From the IMG/VR virus record IMGVR_UViG_3300007735_000523, positions 1-25,131 of that record: a stretch of DNA of 25,131 nucleotides; one strand, 5' to 3'. The notes beneath the pieces were generated by a model. It saw nothing but the letters and a program-made list of their open reading frames with translations, made no database searches and was not told the origin of the DNA. Positions 21,338-24,671 of this stretch are shown here, in pieces (positions within the stretch are counted from its first letter, which is position 1; the number at the start of each line of letters is the position of its first letter). The position numbers were made by a program, and so were the translations under genes. The stretch is from a virus.

Positions 21338-21892
21338 ATGGCTAGGACAATCAGGCTTAAGACGACGACGGCGACGGCGCAAGCGAAGGACAAGGCCCCT
21401 GTGGCCACCGCTACGGGTCCCGCTATCACCACGATTGCGGACAAGTTCTCTGATATTGCGCCTAAGATTCAGGCGGCTGTAATCGACGCACAAGAGGCAA
21501 AGGCACTGGCTGCGGCATACAGGCTTATGGGCGGCAAGTCCGTCACCACGCCGGAGGCTGCCACGGGCAACGTCGGTAAGTTCCACAAGGCCGCGCTCCG
21601 GAAGTTTGCGACCGATGCGGCCTTCCGTGCAAAGGCGCTTGACGCTGCGGCCGCCAAGTCTCCCTACTCCCTTGCAGAGCTTGTCGCGATGACTCGTGGC
21701 TTGGTAAGCAAGTCTCAGGTGATGCATAAGAGCGTAACGGGTACGGACGGTAAGACTGCCGTCACCGGGTCGGCTGCCCGTAACCTGTACGACGCCCCGG
21801 ATTGCTTCCAGTTCTCGGCCATGGCCCGGCTGGACAGCATGGCCTTCCTGCCCGGCAAGGGTCTCATGACCTTCATTACTGAGCAGGTTTAG
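21338..21892 (+). CDS. Unknown protein, first gene of the rightward arm, 184 aa
   Basis: I do not recognise this family. The N-terminus is basic and Thr/Ala-rich (MARTIRLKTTTATAQAKDKAPVATATG), probably disordered. It is followed by an Ala-rich helical domain (AAVIDAQEAKALAAAYRLMGG; FHKAALRKFATDAAFRAKALDAAAAK). The C-terminal part SARNLYDAPDCFQFSAMARLDSMAFLPGKG is more varied. It is net basic, so nucleic acid binding is possible but unproven. ATG 21338 has AAGG about nine nt upstream. It is followed by a tandem pair of stable hairpins. Confidence 0.7.
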   Translation: MARTIRLKTTTATAQAKDKAPVATATGPAITTIADKFSDIAPKIQAAVIDAQEAKALAAAYRLMGGKSVTTPEAATGNVGKFHKAALRKFATDAAFRAKALDAAAAKSPYSLAELVAMTRGLVSKSQVMHKSVTGTDGKTAVTGSAARNLYDAPDCFQFSAMARLDSMAFLPGKGLMTFITEQV

Positions 21893-21904
21893 TCCACACG
21901 GCGT

Positions 21905-21984
21905 ACCCGATTGCCCCGCTTCGGCGGGGCATCGGCGTTTCTGGACCCGATTGCCCGGCTTCGGCCGGGCATCGGCGTGTCTAG
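21905..21984 (+). repeat. Tandem pair of UUCG hairpins (40-bp direct repeat), possible double terminator
   Basis: Two 40-bp units (21905-21944 and 21945-21984) are about 36/40 identical. Each forms an 8-bp stem capped by UUCG: TGCCCCGC with GCGGGGCA (912-931) and TGCCCGGC with GCCGGGCA (952-971). The stems differ at one pair, C-G against G-C, a compensatory change. The unit starts 12 nt after the stop of the 184-aa gene. U-tracts are poor (GTTTCT, GTGTCT), so they may terminate or stabilise the transcript. Confidence 0.65.
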
Positions 21985-22215: not shown

Positions 22216-22404
22216 ATGGACATCGAAACGTTGCTGGCACGCGCCACGATGGCGCGGGACGAACTGTCCGCCATCGTGGCGCGGCAGGACGAGATGCTGC
22301 GCGACATCGACGAGACACTCGCCGAGATCGAGGCGGAGCGTGCCGAAACGGCGCGCATCATCGCCGAAGCCGACCGGGTTTGGGCGGAGGTGACCCATGC
22401 CTGA
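22216..22404 (+). CDS. Small coiled-coil protein, 62 aa, unknown
   Basis: GGAGG lies ten nt before ATG 22216; longer frames upstream have no ribosome binding site and run through the inverted-repeat region. The protein (MDIETLLARATMARDELSAIVARQDEMLRDIDETLAEIEAERAETARIIAEADRVWAEVTHA) is a nearly continuous acidic amphipathic helix with heptad character. Its last codons overlap the ATG of the next gene by eight nt, so the two are probably coupled. Function unknown. Confidence 0.7.
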   Translation: MDIETLLARATMARDELSAIVARQDEMLRDIDETLAEIEAERAETARIIAEADRVWAEVTHA

Positions 22405-22672
22405 GCGGTACACCATGTCTGCCCCTGCTGTCCTGCGCGTCACGGCGCAGGGCACGCCACGCAACGCGCACGGCGACGTGACGTTGCGAGTGGCAACACG
22501 GCGCGGCACAGAGACGCGCACGGTCGGCTTCACCGTCGCTCCGGGCGGATGGGGCACGCCCCACCTGACGCTCGGCAACGGCGTTCCGTCGGTCGTGCAT
22601 GCCAGCGTCATGGTGGCAGTGAGCGATGCCCTCGCGTCTCTGCCCATTCAGGGTGGCGTGGTTTCTCGTTAG
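22397..22672 (+). CDS. Unknown small beta protein, 91 aa
   Basis: ATG 22397 lies inside the end of the preceding gene. The protein (YTMSAPAVLRVTAQGTPRNAHGDVTLRVATRRGTETRTVGFTVAPGGWG...) is predicted beta-rich with many Thr/Val/Arg and no recognised domain. A second ATG at 22415 is possible but less likely. Its TAG (22670-22672) is followed after six nt by the first pseudoknot. Confidence 0.65.
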   Translation: MPERYTMSAPAVLRVTAQGTPRNAHGDVTLRVATRRGTETRTVGFTVAPGGWGTPHLTLGNGVPSVVHASVMVAVSDALASLPIQGGVVSR

Positions 22673-22678
22673 TCGCAT

Positions 22679-22706
22679 GGACCTGAGCACGTCCGTAAAC
22701 TGCTCA
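22679..22706 (+). promoter_or_regulatory. H-type RNA pseudoknot 1 (after TAG 22670-22672)
   Basis: Stem 1 is GGAC (679-682) with GTCC (691-694). Loop 1 is one C. Stem 2 is TGAGCA (684-689) with TGCTCA (701-706). Loop 3 is GTAAAC. The stop-to-stem spacer is 6 nt, and 28 nt separate the element from ATG 22735. The next gene is not in the same frame, and reading on past the stop meets another TAG at 22721. Confidence 0.75.
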
Positions 22707-22734
22707 ATCCCACACGTTATTAGGAGTTACGACA

Positions 22735-23052
22735 ATGGCTTACAATCCCTTGCTGCGCAGCGTCCCCGGTTTCGACCTCCTCATCGGCACGTGCCCGTGC
22801 CACAGCCCCCGCTTGACGCGCGCCGACTACCGTTTGATCGAAGATCCGAGGATCGAGATCGCGGTTAGCTTTCTGGGGCGTCTGCTTCCGAGCCACCAAT
22901 GGGTGGCGACGGTGAATGACGAAGCCGCGCACGCGATAGCGTGTGACGACCCCGAGACGGCCGATAAGGCTGTCGCAGCGGCGAGCCGACTGGCTGAGGC
23001 GCTGGCCGATTGGCCCGAAGACTGGGGGCAGCACGTCGATCTGGCTGTCTAG
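22735..23052 (+). CDS. Unknown protein, 105 aa
   Basis: TAGGAG lies eight nt before ATG 22735. The protein (MAYNPLLRSVPGFDLLIGTCPCHSPRLTRADYRLIEDPRIEIAVSFLGRLLPSHQWVATVNDEAAHAIACDD...) has a mixed fold with an Ala-rich helix near the C-terminus (ADKAVAAASRLAEALADW). CPCH near residue 20 is suggestive of metal binding but is not a full motif. No family recognised. It is flanked by pseudoknots on both sides. Confidence 0.7.
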   Translation: MAYNPLLRSVPGFDLLIGTCPCHSPRLTRADYRLIEDPRIEIAVSFLGRLLPSHQWVATVNDEAAHAIACDDPETADKAVAAASRLAEALADWPEDWGQHVDLAV

Positions 23053-23058
23053 GTGTGT

Positions 23059-23086
23059 GGACCTGAGCATGTCCGTAAACTGCTCG
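23059..23086 (+). promoter_or_regulatory. H-type RNA pseudoknot 2 (after TAG 23050-23052)
   Basis: Stem 1 is GGAC/GTCC (059-062 with 071-074). Stem 2 is TGAGCA (064-069) with TGCTCG (081-086), where the last pair has become U-G. Loop 3 is GTAAAC. The spacer from the stop is 6 nt of different sequence (GTGTGT). ATG 23114 follows 27 nt later and is out of frame with the upstream gene. Confidence 0.75.
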
Positions 23087-23113
23087 TCCCTTCACTATCA
23101 CAGGAGAATCGTC

Positions 23114-23344
23114 ATGGCTACCCTTCCCCGTTTCGCTGTTCTCGCGCAACAAGAGCGCGCCGACGAGTTGTTCCGGCAAGAGTGCGCCGATAGGGCGCGC
23201 GAGTACGTGATGCGCGTCCGGGCGCGCAAGATTTACCAGCGCAACGTGCGCCTCTTCGGCCTCGCCGTGGCCAGCACGGCGGCTACTGCTTTGTTCGTCG
23301 GCTGGCAGATTGCCAGCGTCGTGGCGTGGCTGCTCAATAACTGA
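23114..23344 (+). CDS. Small single-pass membrane protein, 76 aa
   Basis: CAGGAG lies eight nt before ATG 23114. The first two thirds are highly charged and helical (QQERADELFRQECADRAREYVMRVRARKIYQRNVRL). Residues about 49-74 (FGLAVASTAATALFVGWQIASVVAWLL) are one hydrophobic segment ending with NN, so the bulk is predicted cytoplasmic with a C-terminal anchor. A holin or an inner-membrane early protein are both possible; nothing in the context decides. It ends in TGA (23342-23344), followed by the divergent pseudoknot. Confidence 0.7.
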   Translation: MATLPRFAVLAQQERADELFRQECADRAREYVMRVRARKIYQRNVRLFGLAVASTAATALFVGWQIASVVAWLLNN

Positions 23345-23352
23345 GCGGGCCC

Positions 23353-23381
23353 CGACGTGGGGCGCGTCGCTAACCTGCCCC
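23353..23381 (+). promoter_or_regulatory. H-type RNA pseudoknot 3, divergent copy with compensatory stems (after TGA 23342-23344)
   Basis: Stem 1 is CGACG (353-357) with CGTCG (365-369). Loop 1 is one T. Stem 2 is GGGGCG (359-364) with TGCCCC (376-381), including one G-U. Loop 3 is CTAACC, equivalent to NTAAAC. Both stems differ in sequence from the other copies but keep pairing. The spacer is 8 nt and ATG 23411 is in frame with the TGA. Confidence 0.72.
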
Positions 23382-23410
23382 GTCGTTACCCATTATCACA
23401 GGAGATTGTC

Positions 23411-23599
23411 ATGGAAATCGAGAAGGTAAAGGCGGCGTTGGAGGCGTTGGTGGCGGAAATCCGCCACACTGAGGCGGCCTTTAAGGAGGAAGAGGAACTC
23501 TTCGGCGATGATGTCGATCCCGTTCCGTATTTGGAACGGTTGGCGTTCCTACACGCTGTGCGTGTAGCCACCATCAAGAAGCTCGCGGCAGAAGTCTAG
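23411..23599 (+). CDS. Small acidic helical protein, 62 aa, unknown
   Basis: GGAG lies six nt before ATG 23411. The protein (MEIEKVKAALEALVAEIRHTEAAFKEEEELFGDDVDPVPYLERLAFLHAVRVATIKKLAAEV) is helical with a short acidic turn. It could be a coiled-coil dimer. The frame is open back to the preceding TGA, so the protein could exist as a readthrough fusion to the membrane protein, but the ribosome binding site supports independent synthesis. It ends in TAG (23597-23599). Confidence 0.7.
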   Translation: MEIEKVKAALEALVAEIRHTEAAFKEEEELFGDDVDPVPYLERLAFLHAVRVATIKKLAAEV

Positions 23600-23605
23600 G
23601 TGTAC

Positions 23606-23633
23606 GGACCTGAGCATGTCCCTAAACTGCTCA
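23606..23633 (+). promoter_or_regulatory. H-type RNA pseudoknot 4 (after TAG 23597-23599)
   Basis: Stem 1 is GGAC/GTCC (606-609 with 618-621). Stem 2 is TGAGCA/TGCTCA (611-616 with 628-633). Loop 3 is CTAAAC. The spacer is 6 nt (GTGTAC). ATG 23663 follows 29 nt later and is in frame with the TAG, with no intervening stop. Confidence 0.75.
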
Positions 23634-23662
23634 ATCCCACTCATTATCACGGAGATGTTGTC

Positions 23663-24637
23663 ATGGCTATTACAGTTACGGATAAGGTGCGGGCGTTCAT
23701 CAAGGAGCGCAAGGCGGCTACGCTGCGGGAGATCAAGGCGGCGCTCCAGCTGGAGCACGCTCCCGCACAGTCCATCGTCTCCCATCTGCGAACGCTTGGT
23801 GAGATACGGTACGAGAACGGGACGCACTACTTTGTCCGCGATTACGTGGCAAAGCCGCGCGCTGACAAGGGAACCCGTAGGCCCTTCAAGGGCGACACCT
23901 ACGTCAACCAGATACGACAGCTGTTGGTGGAGCGTGGGTTCGCCACGCAGCGCGAAATAAAGGCGGCAGTCGGGCAGCCGGGCGGTCGAGTATCGCGTGT
24001 CCTCGCACGACTCGCTCAGCGCGGCGAAGCGCTCCGTGGGAGCGATGGTAAGTGGATGATTATCCCCAAGAAGGCAGAGCCCGCGCCTCAGTCCGTCTCA
24101 TGGGAAGCCGACTACCGGGAGGCTCTTCTGCGCGGCCTTAAAGCCGCGAGGCAGGCCGACGCGTTGCGAGACGCGGTGCAGTTGATGCCAGATAACCATG
24201 CCCTAGCCGAGATGGTGCGCGAAGCCGAGGAGCGTGCAGAGTCCGCCGTTCGCCTGCGGGCGTTTACCCGCATCAGGGTAGAGGAGTACGCCGGGATTCC
24301 GGCCTTCACCCTCTGGTTGCAGGAGGAGGAGACGGACGTAAACTGGAGCGGCATCCGGTTTACGTATCGGGTGGAGGAAGTTCCGTCCGGCTTCCGCGAC
24401 GCCGACTGGTGGCAGGGCAAGCCGCGCGGAATGGCGGTGTATGCCACCGTCTGTAAAGACCCCTTCACGCTGGAGCCGAAGTGGGAGTGGGAGATCTTCT
24501 TCCCCGGCATCGGGGCGGCAGATAAAGACTTTACTGCCCACATTTACAGGTCTGCGGTAGGGCAGTACAAGTTGCCCCAGTACCACGTTAACACCGGGCC
24601 GCACGGACGGTCTGTCCTCAACGCGGCGCAGGTTTAG
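23663..24637 (+). CDS. Protein with two N-terminal winged-helix domains and unknown C-terminal domain, 324 aa
   Basis: Two winged-helix-type units lie in tandem. Residues about 1-57 contain KVRAFIKERKAATLREIKAALQLEHAPAQSIVSHLRTLGEIRYENGTHYF. Residues about 82-135 contain QIRQLLVERGFATQREIKAAVGQPGGRVSRVLARLAQRGEALRGSDGKWMI. This suggests DNA or RNA binding and a regulatory role. Residues about 150-210 are charged helices. The C-terminal part (IPAFTLWLQEEETDVNWSGIRFTYRVEEVPSGFRDADWWQGKPRG...) is an unrecognised beta-rich domain. GGAG lies ten nt before ATG 23663; the open frame reaches back to the preceding TAG. It is flanked by pseudoknots, so it may regulate or be regulated by them. Confidence 0.78.
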   Translation: MAITVTDKVRAFIKERKAATLREIKAALQLEHAPAQSIVSHLRTLGEIRYENGTHYFVRDYVAKPRADKGTRRPFKGDTYVNQIRQLLVERGFATQREIKAAVGQPGGRVSRVLARLAQRGEALRGSDGKWMIIPKKAEPAPQSVSWEADYREALLRGLKAARQADALRDAVQLMPDNHALAEMVREAEERAESAVRLRAFTRIRVEEYAGIPAFTLWLQEEETDVNWSGIRFTYRVEEVPSGFRDADWWQGKPRGMAVYATVCKDPFTLEPKWEWEIFFPGIGAADKDFTAHIYRSAVGQYKLPQYHVNTGPHGRSVLNAAQV

Positions 24638-24643
24638 CTGTCT

Positions 24644-24671
24644 GGACCTGAGCAAGTCCATAAACTGCTCA
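24644..24671 (+). promoter_or_regulatory. H-type RNA pseudoknot 5 (after TAG 24635-24637)
   Basis: Stem 1 is GGAC/GTCC (644-647 with 656-659). Stem 2 is TGAGCA/TGCTCA (649-654 with 666-671). Loop 3 is ATAAAC. The spacer is 6 nt (CTGTCT). The next ATG, 24734, is 62 nt away because an extra hairpin is inserted, yet it is still in frame with the TAG and no stop intervenes. Confidence 0.75.

Follow-up and report, generated by a model that had tools for sequence, protein, structure and literature searches.

The 25,131-nt stretch of viral DNA analysed here (the window) raises the question of what a compact RNA fold is doing at five gene junctions, each time a few nucleotides past a stop codon. On rescanning the window we recovered all five copies at the coordinates and with the topology that an earlier note had given, and the distances from stop codon to first stem (6, 6, 8, 6 and 6 nt) were also as claimed there. 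Its account of stem 1 (S1), loop 1 (L1), stem 2 (S2) and loop 3 (L3) stood, but the 1-nt junction between the stems (loop 2, L2) had been named without being counted. The copies are sited between genes, with 250-1,040 nt between neighbours, as follows.

22397..22672, plus strand: ORF preceding copy 1 (91 aa), no known family
22679..22706, plus strand: pseudoknot copy 1, 6 nt past TAG 22670-22672, model R1 36.8 bits; S1 GGAC/GTCC, L1 C, S2 TGAGCA/TGCTCA, L2 C, L3 GTAAAC
22735..23052, plus strand: ORF preceding copy 2 (105 aa), no known family
23059..23086, plus strand: pseudoknot copy 2, 6 nt past TAG 23050-23052, model R1 37.0 bits
23114..23344, plus strand: ORF preceding copy 3 (76 aa), no known family
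23353..23381, plus strand: pseudoknot copy 3, a divergent variant, 8 nt past TGA 23342-23344; S1 CGACG/CGTCG (5 bp), L1 T, S2 GGGGCG/TGCCCC, without L2, L3 CTAACC
23411..23599, plus strand: ORF preceding copy 4 (62 aa), no known family
23606..23633, plus strand: pseudoknot copy 4, 6 nt past TAG 23597-23599, model R1 40.2 bits
23663..24637, plus strand: ORF preceding copy 5 (324 aa), PHROG transcriptional regulator, winged-helix like (phrog_633, E 4.9e-08)
24644..24671, plus strand: pseudoknot copy 5, 6 nt past TAG 24635-24637, model R1 38.7 bits
24734..25131, plus strand: ORF downstream of copy 5, running past the window end, no known family

Copies 1, 2, 4 and 5 have the form GGAC-C-TGAGCA-N-GTCC-NTAAAC-TGCTC(A/G), with most of the 28 bases common to all four and a U-G at the outer S2 pair of copy 2. 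Dinucleotide-shuffled junctions for every one of the 305 stops that end an ORF on either strand of the window gave a chance expectation of 0.32 pseudoknots lying 4-9 nt past a stop, against six found, namely the five noted copies and one G+C-rich minus-strand match that is probably due to chance. Copy 3 was not matched by model R1 and was assigned by its topology and position; it was recovered by the same unconstrained topology scan as the other copies, and one more element of the CTAACC type was found past a stop among the fetched loci. Taken alone, copy 3 would not be a safe call. The observation of five copies is confirmed as real. A megablast search of the whole window against annotated phages gave no match.

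The scale far exceeds the window, as the element is confirmed across hundreds of unrelated phages as well as some bacteria. The 28-nt element was present in hundreds of IMG/VR contigs, its exact core was found again in 100 IMG/VR stretches, and some bacterial genomes also carry it. The annotated carrier phages belong to the S. aureus phiETA/80 group, to Lactobacillus, Nostoc, Arthrobacter, crAss-like and Roseobacter phages and to a microvirus, with a host range spanning cyanobacteria, Firmicutes, Actinobacteria, alphaproteobacteria and Bacteroidota. Gammaproteobacteria seem to be without the element, which was found in 0 of 273 besides the seed genome. Weak matches in Vibrio phages (E 0.6) and loci in Xenorhabdus and Oceanobacter in which S1 or S2 pairing fails were treated as chance.

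No Rfam 15 family matched over the element at E-values up to 1-10 in the window and 22 other loci, where tRNA, tmRNA and one hammerhead alone passed the Rfam gathering threshold. Open papers about phage pseudoknots, about RNA resistant to exonucleases and about hammerheads and RAGATH motifs also gave no description of the element, and the claim that no such phage element had been described stands within the limits of Rfam 15 and the searchable open literature. To our knowledge it is among the smallest conserved RNA structures. It occurs in the well-studied S. aureus phiETA/80 group, yet Rfam contains nothing like it; some S. aureus phage records annotate it as a promoter. A riboswitch reading was rejected, the downstream genes being unrelated.

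Comparison of homologous sequences identifies the element as a conserved cis-acting RNA 28-30 nt long, predicted to fold as an H-type pseudoknot with a consensus of S1 (4-5 bp), L1 (1 nt, C), S2 (6 bp), L3 (6 nt, NUAAAC) and, between the stems, one junction base (U, A or C, rarely G). Fixing S2 and leaving S1 free at 436 places, we found the inner three S1 pairs to be 98-99% Watson-Crick and mean S1 pairing to be 0.905 against 0.54 in shuffled controls; with its 3' half free S2 was Watson-Crick at 0.876 against 0.51 shuffled. Double-changed cells numbered 127 against 39 shuffled, and sliding the partners by 1-3 columns lowered pairing from 95% to 23-42%. The two interleaved helices that define the H-type topology both covary, and at the level of sequence we regard this covariation as decisive evidence for the pseudoknot proposed earlier. 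Since S2 keeps G-U (38) and not A-C (5), the strand that pairs is the sense-strand RNA.

The distance to the upstream stop codon is equally distinctive. Among 591 elements, 146 begin exactly 5 nt past a stop, 52 at 6 nt, 34 at 7 nt and three at 3 nt or less, compared with 1-4 per distance bin in the control, and the distribution has a long tail toward larger distances. This peak at 5 nt bears out the suggestion that spacing from the stop is selected. The stops found across these elements were TAA (308), TAG (95) and TGA (78). The upstream stop is constant whereas the downstream neighbour varies (tRNA, ribozyme, ORF of any function or occasionally a convergent gene), the next gene usually starting 20-100 nt beyond the element. 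The gene-orientation tally around the elements is noisy with spurious small ORFs and carries no weight. In loci of Omnitrophota and Desulfobacterota type the element and the end of a tiny ORF overlap, and this small-ORF class had no microprotein family match in NCBIfam or Pfam.

Structured RNAs were observed directly 3' of the element. Hammerheads occupy this position in nine loci (L185, L205, L681, L682, L684, L685, L691, L274 and L328), and in seven of the nine the cut falls 4-7 nt past the element, those of L684 and L691 being taken by visual inspection of the same output. The L685 hammerhead passes Rfam's own cut-off, and a control scan with a scrambled hammerhead core gave 0 matches. The element itself is not a self-cleaving hammerhead ribozyme, as the CUGANGA...GAAA core is absent from it and occurs only in the separate RNA 3' of it at some loci. 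A tRNA starts 1-10 nt past the element in 12 cases against 0.18 expected, and ends 10 nt or less before it in one; annotated examples of the element followed by a tRNA are crAss cr124_1, Nostoc NMeng1 and Arthrobacter Molivia. Downstream of most elements there is just the next gene and no recognisable signal for cleavage.

Among the roles listed in the earlier note, mRNA processing or an exonuclease block fits best because the element stands directly 5' of hammerheads and tRNAs. Our best reading, which we hold to be probable by a modest degree, is a 3'-end cap that blocks 3' to 5' exonucleases. The element belongs to the 3' UTR of the upstream gene, and on this reading the polycistronic transcript would be cut just 3' of it by endonucleases, by RNase P at the next tRNA or by the next hammerhead. 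The cut would leave a compact knot with a single-stranded tail of a few nucleotides, which may deny exonucleases of the PNPase, RNase R or RNase II type both a landing pad and passage, so that the upstream cistron would survive behind the knot; exonuclease resistance and an effect on mRNA lifetime are what we infer for it. The knot would have to lie at least 4-5 nt from the stop, since a terminating ribosome would unwind a nearer one, and its usual place near that limit would leave little naked RNA between the last ribosome and the cap.

Equally, the 5-nt peak may arise because the element acts through contact with the terminating ribosome. The knot would then touch the mRNA entry site while the stop codon occupies the A site, and would alter termination, recycling, post-termination scanning or coupling to the next cistron. 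Two facts agree with this: the optimum at 5 nt is sharp and lies where stimulators of frameshifting and readthrough act, and the next gene mostly begins 20-100 nt on. Yet tRNAs and hammerheads, neither of which needs a ribosome, are left unexplained after the element, and the long tail of larger stop distances does not fit; we judge this account unlikely. The small-ORF loci of Omnitrophota and Desulfobacterota type, with the stop inside or next to the knot, speak against ribosome contact and the cap alike. Less likely again is a processing aid or insulator, in which the knot would shield the folding of downstream RNA (tRNA, hammerhead or next leader) from upstream RNA or ribosomes, or form part of the cleavage site; it accounts for the position directly 5' of tRNAs and hammerheads, but a structured RNA is missing downstream of most elements and spacing is kept to the upstream stop, not to a downstream feature.

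A barrier to 5' to 3' decay by RNase J, protecting the downstream cistron, appears improbable. SPP1-like phages often have highly expressed scaffold and capsid genes after the element, and the apparent lack of the element in Gammaproteobacteria would suit it, but the link is rejected by host repertoire, there being no TIGR00649 match in four of the element-bearing genomes tested, from Omnitrophota and Bacteroidota, and a barrier 4-7 nt before a hammerhead cut cannot shield RNA beyond the cut. Gammaproteobacteria also own PNPase and RNase R, so that their seeming lack of the element is not predicted by the cap either. It is scarcely plausible that the element binds, or acts as a decoy for, a single protein coded by the phage or a type III toxin. 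Some single-stranded bases of the element are nearly invariant, which speaks for it, but the carriers (dsDNA phages of many hosts, an ssDNA microvirus and bacteria) have no obvious gene in common, which tells against the proposed control by one phage protein. The ToxN decoy suggested earlier likewise found no support, the copies being dispersed singles and not a tandem array adjoining a toxin gene; a ToxI-like antitoxin does not describe the window copies either, given their wide separation and ORFs between and after them that are one regulator and otherwise of no known family. Stop-codon readthrough, also raised earlier, is the least credible role: the spacing resembles that of the MuLV readthrough knot and the post-stop frame is open through the element in four window copies, but across the 591 elements no frame is kept open past the stop, TAA is the commonest stop, and spacings of 7 and 10 nt give an in-frame TGA inside the element.

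If the 3'-end cap is true, it would account for the way in which the ends left by phage hammerheads and tRNAs are protected, a point that the discovery of phage hammerheads did not settle, and would provide bacteria with a portable mRNA stabiliser of 30 nt. Should the element face the ribosome, it would represent a novel type of stop-codon signal. Tentatively, and leaning slightly toward doubt, we propose that this host-independent, unlisted RNA family of tailed and ssDNA phages may serve universally to cap mRNA ends, as a pseudoknot of 28 nt that fits exactly against the terminating ribosome and is coupled to cuts by ribozymes or RNase P, turning polycistronic phage transcripts into capped single-gene mRNAs.

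Among known systems, the T4/T2 gene 32 leader pseudoknot is also of H-type, with a 1-nt loop 1 across a long stem 2 in a phage mRNA. It lies in the 5' leader of one gene, where it nucleates gp32 autoregulation, and unlike the element has no conserved NUAAAC loop or stop-codon spacing; an autoregulatory leader of this type does not describe an element that comes after the stops of unrelated genes and, in Arthrobacter phage Molivia, after the ssb gene and not before it. The BWYV and SRV-1 frameshift pseudoknots are similarly compact, with an A-rich loop 3 beside stem 1 and a comparable spacing of about 5-8 nt past the A-site codon, but the element lacks both a slippery site and a conserved reading frame. 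The REP elements of E. coli and intrinsic terminators are post-stop structures that protect upstream mRNA; they are simple hairpins, REP having no knot or conserved loop, and the element differs from terminators in having no general U-tract. The upstream pseudoknot domain of the tobamovirus 3' UTR has the same order of stop codon, H-type knot(s) and tRNA-like fold, but belongs to a plant RNA virus, with unrelated sequence and three stacked knots. The STAXI motif (Weinberg et al. 2010, PMC2864571), which has UUCG loops and occurs in tandem copies close to genes for ssb and topoisomerase, is like the element a small bacterial pseudoknot without an assigned role, but gave no match to it in the Rfam scans. 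Prophage hammerheads that segment transcripts (Perreault et al. 2011, PMC3088659) differ from the element, which has no ribozyme core, and the searched passages of that paper describe no knot 5' of the ribozyme. The hammerheads have the same habit of cutting phage transcripts into gene-sized mRNAs, and some hammerheads directly follow the element.

The window is a 25-kb virus record; its minus-strand arm encodes a P22-like portal, terminase, major head protein and primase, and the right end is a rightward operon made of small genes. The five H-type pseudoknots that the earlier note had placed at window positions 22679-24671 were recovered there, with stop-to-knot gaps of 6, 6, 8, 6 and 6 nt. 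As an unconstrained scan of both strands gave 11 matches to the topology in the window and 10 in its reversed sequence, the topology alone is cheap. Knots lying 4-9 nt 3' of a stop codon numbered six in the window against 0.32 expected, comprising the five noted copies and one G+C-rich match on the minus strand. Four of the five copies have a common sequence; copy 3 (23353..23381) was assigned as a divergent variant from its topology and position. The window also carries the following repeat, each 40-nt unit of which is a G+C-rich hairpin that has TTCG in its loop and lacks a T-run:
Window 21905-21984: tandem repeat pair, 2 x 40 nt, 90% identical, 3' of the stop of the ORF ending at 21892.

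Pairing was examined in two clean covariation tests, each leaving one helix outside the search pattern. With stem 1 (S1) and the 5' half of stem 2 (S2) fixed, the inner three positions of the S2 3' half were Watson-Crick in 87.6% against 51% when shuffled (124 places); in the converse test, where the pattern set S2 and the loop but neither strand of S1, Watson-Crick pairing reached 98, 99 and 99% at the three inner pairs of S1 (436 places), with pair types as diverse as CGTC/GACG, ACAC/GTGT, ACTC/GAGT, CCAC/GTGG, CATC/GATG and CTTC/GAAG. Across 85 distinct element sequences, a set selected partly for pairing, double changes occurred at 8 of the 10 pairs, and shifting the partner by 1-3 columns lowered pairing from 95% to 23-42%. 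Both stems therefore covary in homologues, a check proposed in the earlier note, and the element is an RNA structure. As S2 accepts G-U (38) and not A-C (5), the sense RNA is the pairing strand. Every perfect 4-bp copy had C as loop 1, and the loop 3 sequence was NUAAAC; because the search patterns fixed those bases, this invariance is partly built in.

For 591 elements, excluding the small-ORF class described below, the gap between S1 and the nearest stop that ends an ORF was measured, with ORF-based gene calls in the retrieved loci. It peaked at 5 nt (146 elements), followed by 6 (52), 7 (34), 8 (25), 9 (22) and 10 nt (19), with 11 elements at 4 nt and 3 at 3 nt or less, against 1-4 per bin in a shifted control, and the suggestion of a selected spacing was thus borne out. 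With the stop codon in the A site, a 5-nt gap means that S1 begins at +12 relative to the P site, the edge of the ribosome-unwound region, so the element lies as near the stop as a terminating ribosome permits without melting it. This optimum is as sharp as that of frameshift stimulators, which speaks for a ribosome-facing role of the knot; we hold this main rival to the 3' cap proposed below to be possible, though rather improbable. The stop codons were TAA (308), TAG (95) and TGA (78). Readthrough, a role also raised earlier, is disfavoured because no reading frame is kept open past the stop in the 591 elements and an in-frame TGA falls inside the element at spacings of 7 and 10 nt. In viral contigs L013, L018, L012, L019, L023, L009, L040 and L070, a short hairpin intervenes between stop and pseudoknot, and the spacing is larger for that reason.

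The small-ORF class consists of bacterial loci in which a tiny unannotated ORF (~14-32 aa) that has a strong ribosome-binding site is placed immediately 5' of the pseudoknot or overlaps it:
L229, L247, L248, L256, L273, L275, L278-L283, L288, L305, L310, L313, L322, L330, L331: bacterial loci with the tiny ORF.
The peptide (...VAHCxxGC..., frequently ending in SWARR) had no Pfam or NCBIfam match. Its hosts are Omnitrophota, Desulfobacterota-type and Firmicute genomes, and in some Omnitrophota a gene whose product begins MKLITRDTDYA (Rrf2-like by eye), together with redox genes, comes after the ORF.

In database scans, whose samples are not random, the exact core CTGAGCANGTCCNTAAACTGCTC was present in 100 IMG/VR stretches, and other stem variants had at least 120 IMG/VR matches each. 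Whole-record searches of 47 virus and phage records bearing the element gave 1 to 9 copies apiece. Annotated carriers include crAss-like phages cr7_1 and cr124_1, Lactobacillus phages phiEF-1.1, phig1e, Lj771 and KC5a, Staphylococcus StB12, over 80 Staphylococcus records (chiefly the S. aureus phiETA/80 group), thermophilic phage D6E, Roseobacter SIO1 and relatives, Paracoccus ParMal1, the cyanobacterial phages Nostoc NMeng1 and Synechococcus S-EIVl, Arthrobacter Molivia and Mycobacterium Labelle. The element is not confined to tailed phages, as it also follows a gene of an ssDNA phage:
L347 1064-1090: element 3' of the VP4 gene in Microviridae genome MG945738.1.
Among bacterial genomes, surveyed by class or phylum under stricter filters that lose weak matches and with seed genomes excluded, it occurred in 24/144 Omnitrophota, 7/249 Bacilli, 2/193 of the cyanobacterial class and 0/273 Gammaproteobacteria. 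Several S. aureus phage records, such as Staphylococcus phage B166 (L345 608-644), annotate the pseudoknot as a promoter (BPROM P5R), probably a misannotation.

The context 3' of the element is variable, with tRNAs and hammerheads as its two recurrent neighbours. A tRNA started 1-10 nt (mostly 2-7) 3' of 12 elements and ended within 10 nt 5' of one; the 0.18 starts expected from uniform placement of 218 tRNAs in 4.4 Mb is too low, since tRNAs and elements both avoid genes, which leaves the 12:1 asymmetry unaffected. Convincing hammerheads were located by core pattern scans 3' of the element in L185, L205, L681, L682, L684, L685 and L691, adding to those found earlier in bacterial loci L274 and L328; the one in L685 scored above the Rfam hammerhead threshold and the others were judged by core and stems. 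Their cut sites mostly lie 4-7 nt 3' of the element, two being at 18-20 nt. A scrambled-core scan 3' of the element gave no match. The matches in L687-L690 lie in coding sequence and look like chance, and the L683 candidate has no other stems; these were rejected. In crAss-like phages, two knots stand in tandem:
L221 2458-2527 and L346 1958-2027: knot pair, 42 nt apart, before primase or tRNA-Val.
In SPP1-like Staphylococcus and Lactobacillus phages and D6E, the element separates the scaffold gene from the portal or minor head gene, a natural point for splitting the transcript. A second conserved stretch, ~TTTTTATGC, was seen 3' of the pseudoknot and 5' of the scaffold-gene ribosome-binding site in L222, L223 and L353, and in loci from Firmicute prophages (L235, L254 and L291 among them), followed in some phages by a hairpin and AATAAA; this stretch may be where cleavage takes place, or it may form a structure at the 5' end.

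The element is constantly partnered by the stop codon upstream and recurrently by a cleavage site downstream, and we therefore favour, with some reserve, a reading in which it would cap the 3' UTR of the upstream cistron and halt 3'->5' exonucleases. A cut by the ribozyme or RNase P just 3' of the element would leave an upstream mRNA that ends in the knot and a short tail. For PNPase and RNase R, as for most 3'->5' exonucleases, a too-short 3' tail prevents loading, and a knot so tailed would stop them, sparing the upstream cistron. That the knot instead blocks RNase J is very unlikely, as four carrier genomes from Omnitrophota and Bacteroidota had no match to that enzyme, and a block placed 5 nt 5' of a ribozyme cut cannot shield RNA beyond the cut.

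No Rfam 15 family exists for the element, and no testable known family contains it, the literature considered being open-access papers. RAGATH motifs were found near hammerheads and twisters, and the element may already stand, without a role, in such large unnamed supplementary motif sets; as motif surveys may thus contain it, we do not hold it to be categorically new. We file it with the structured mRNA end elements, a known kind. Where neither ribozyme nor tRNA follows, the proposed cap would work as REP elements do, halting decay that enters from the 3' side once an ordinary endonuclease has cut.
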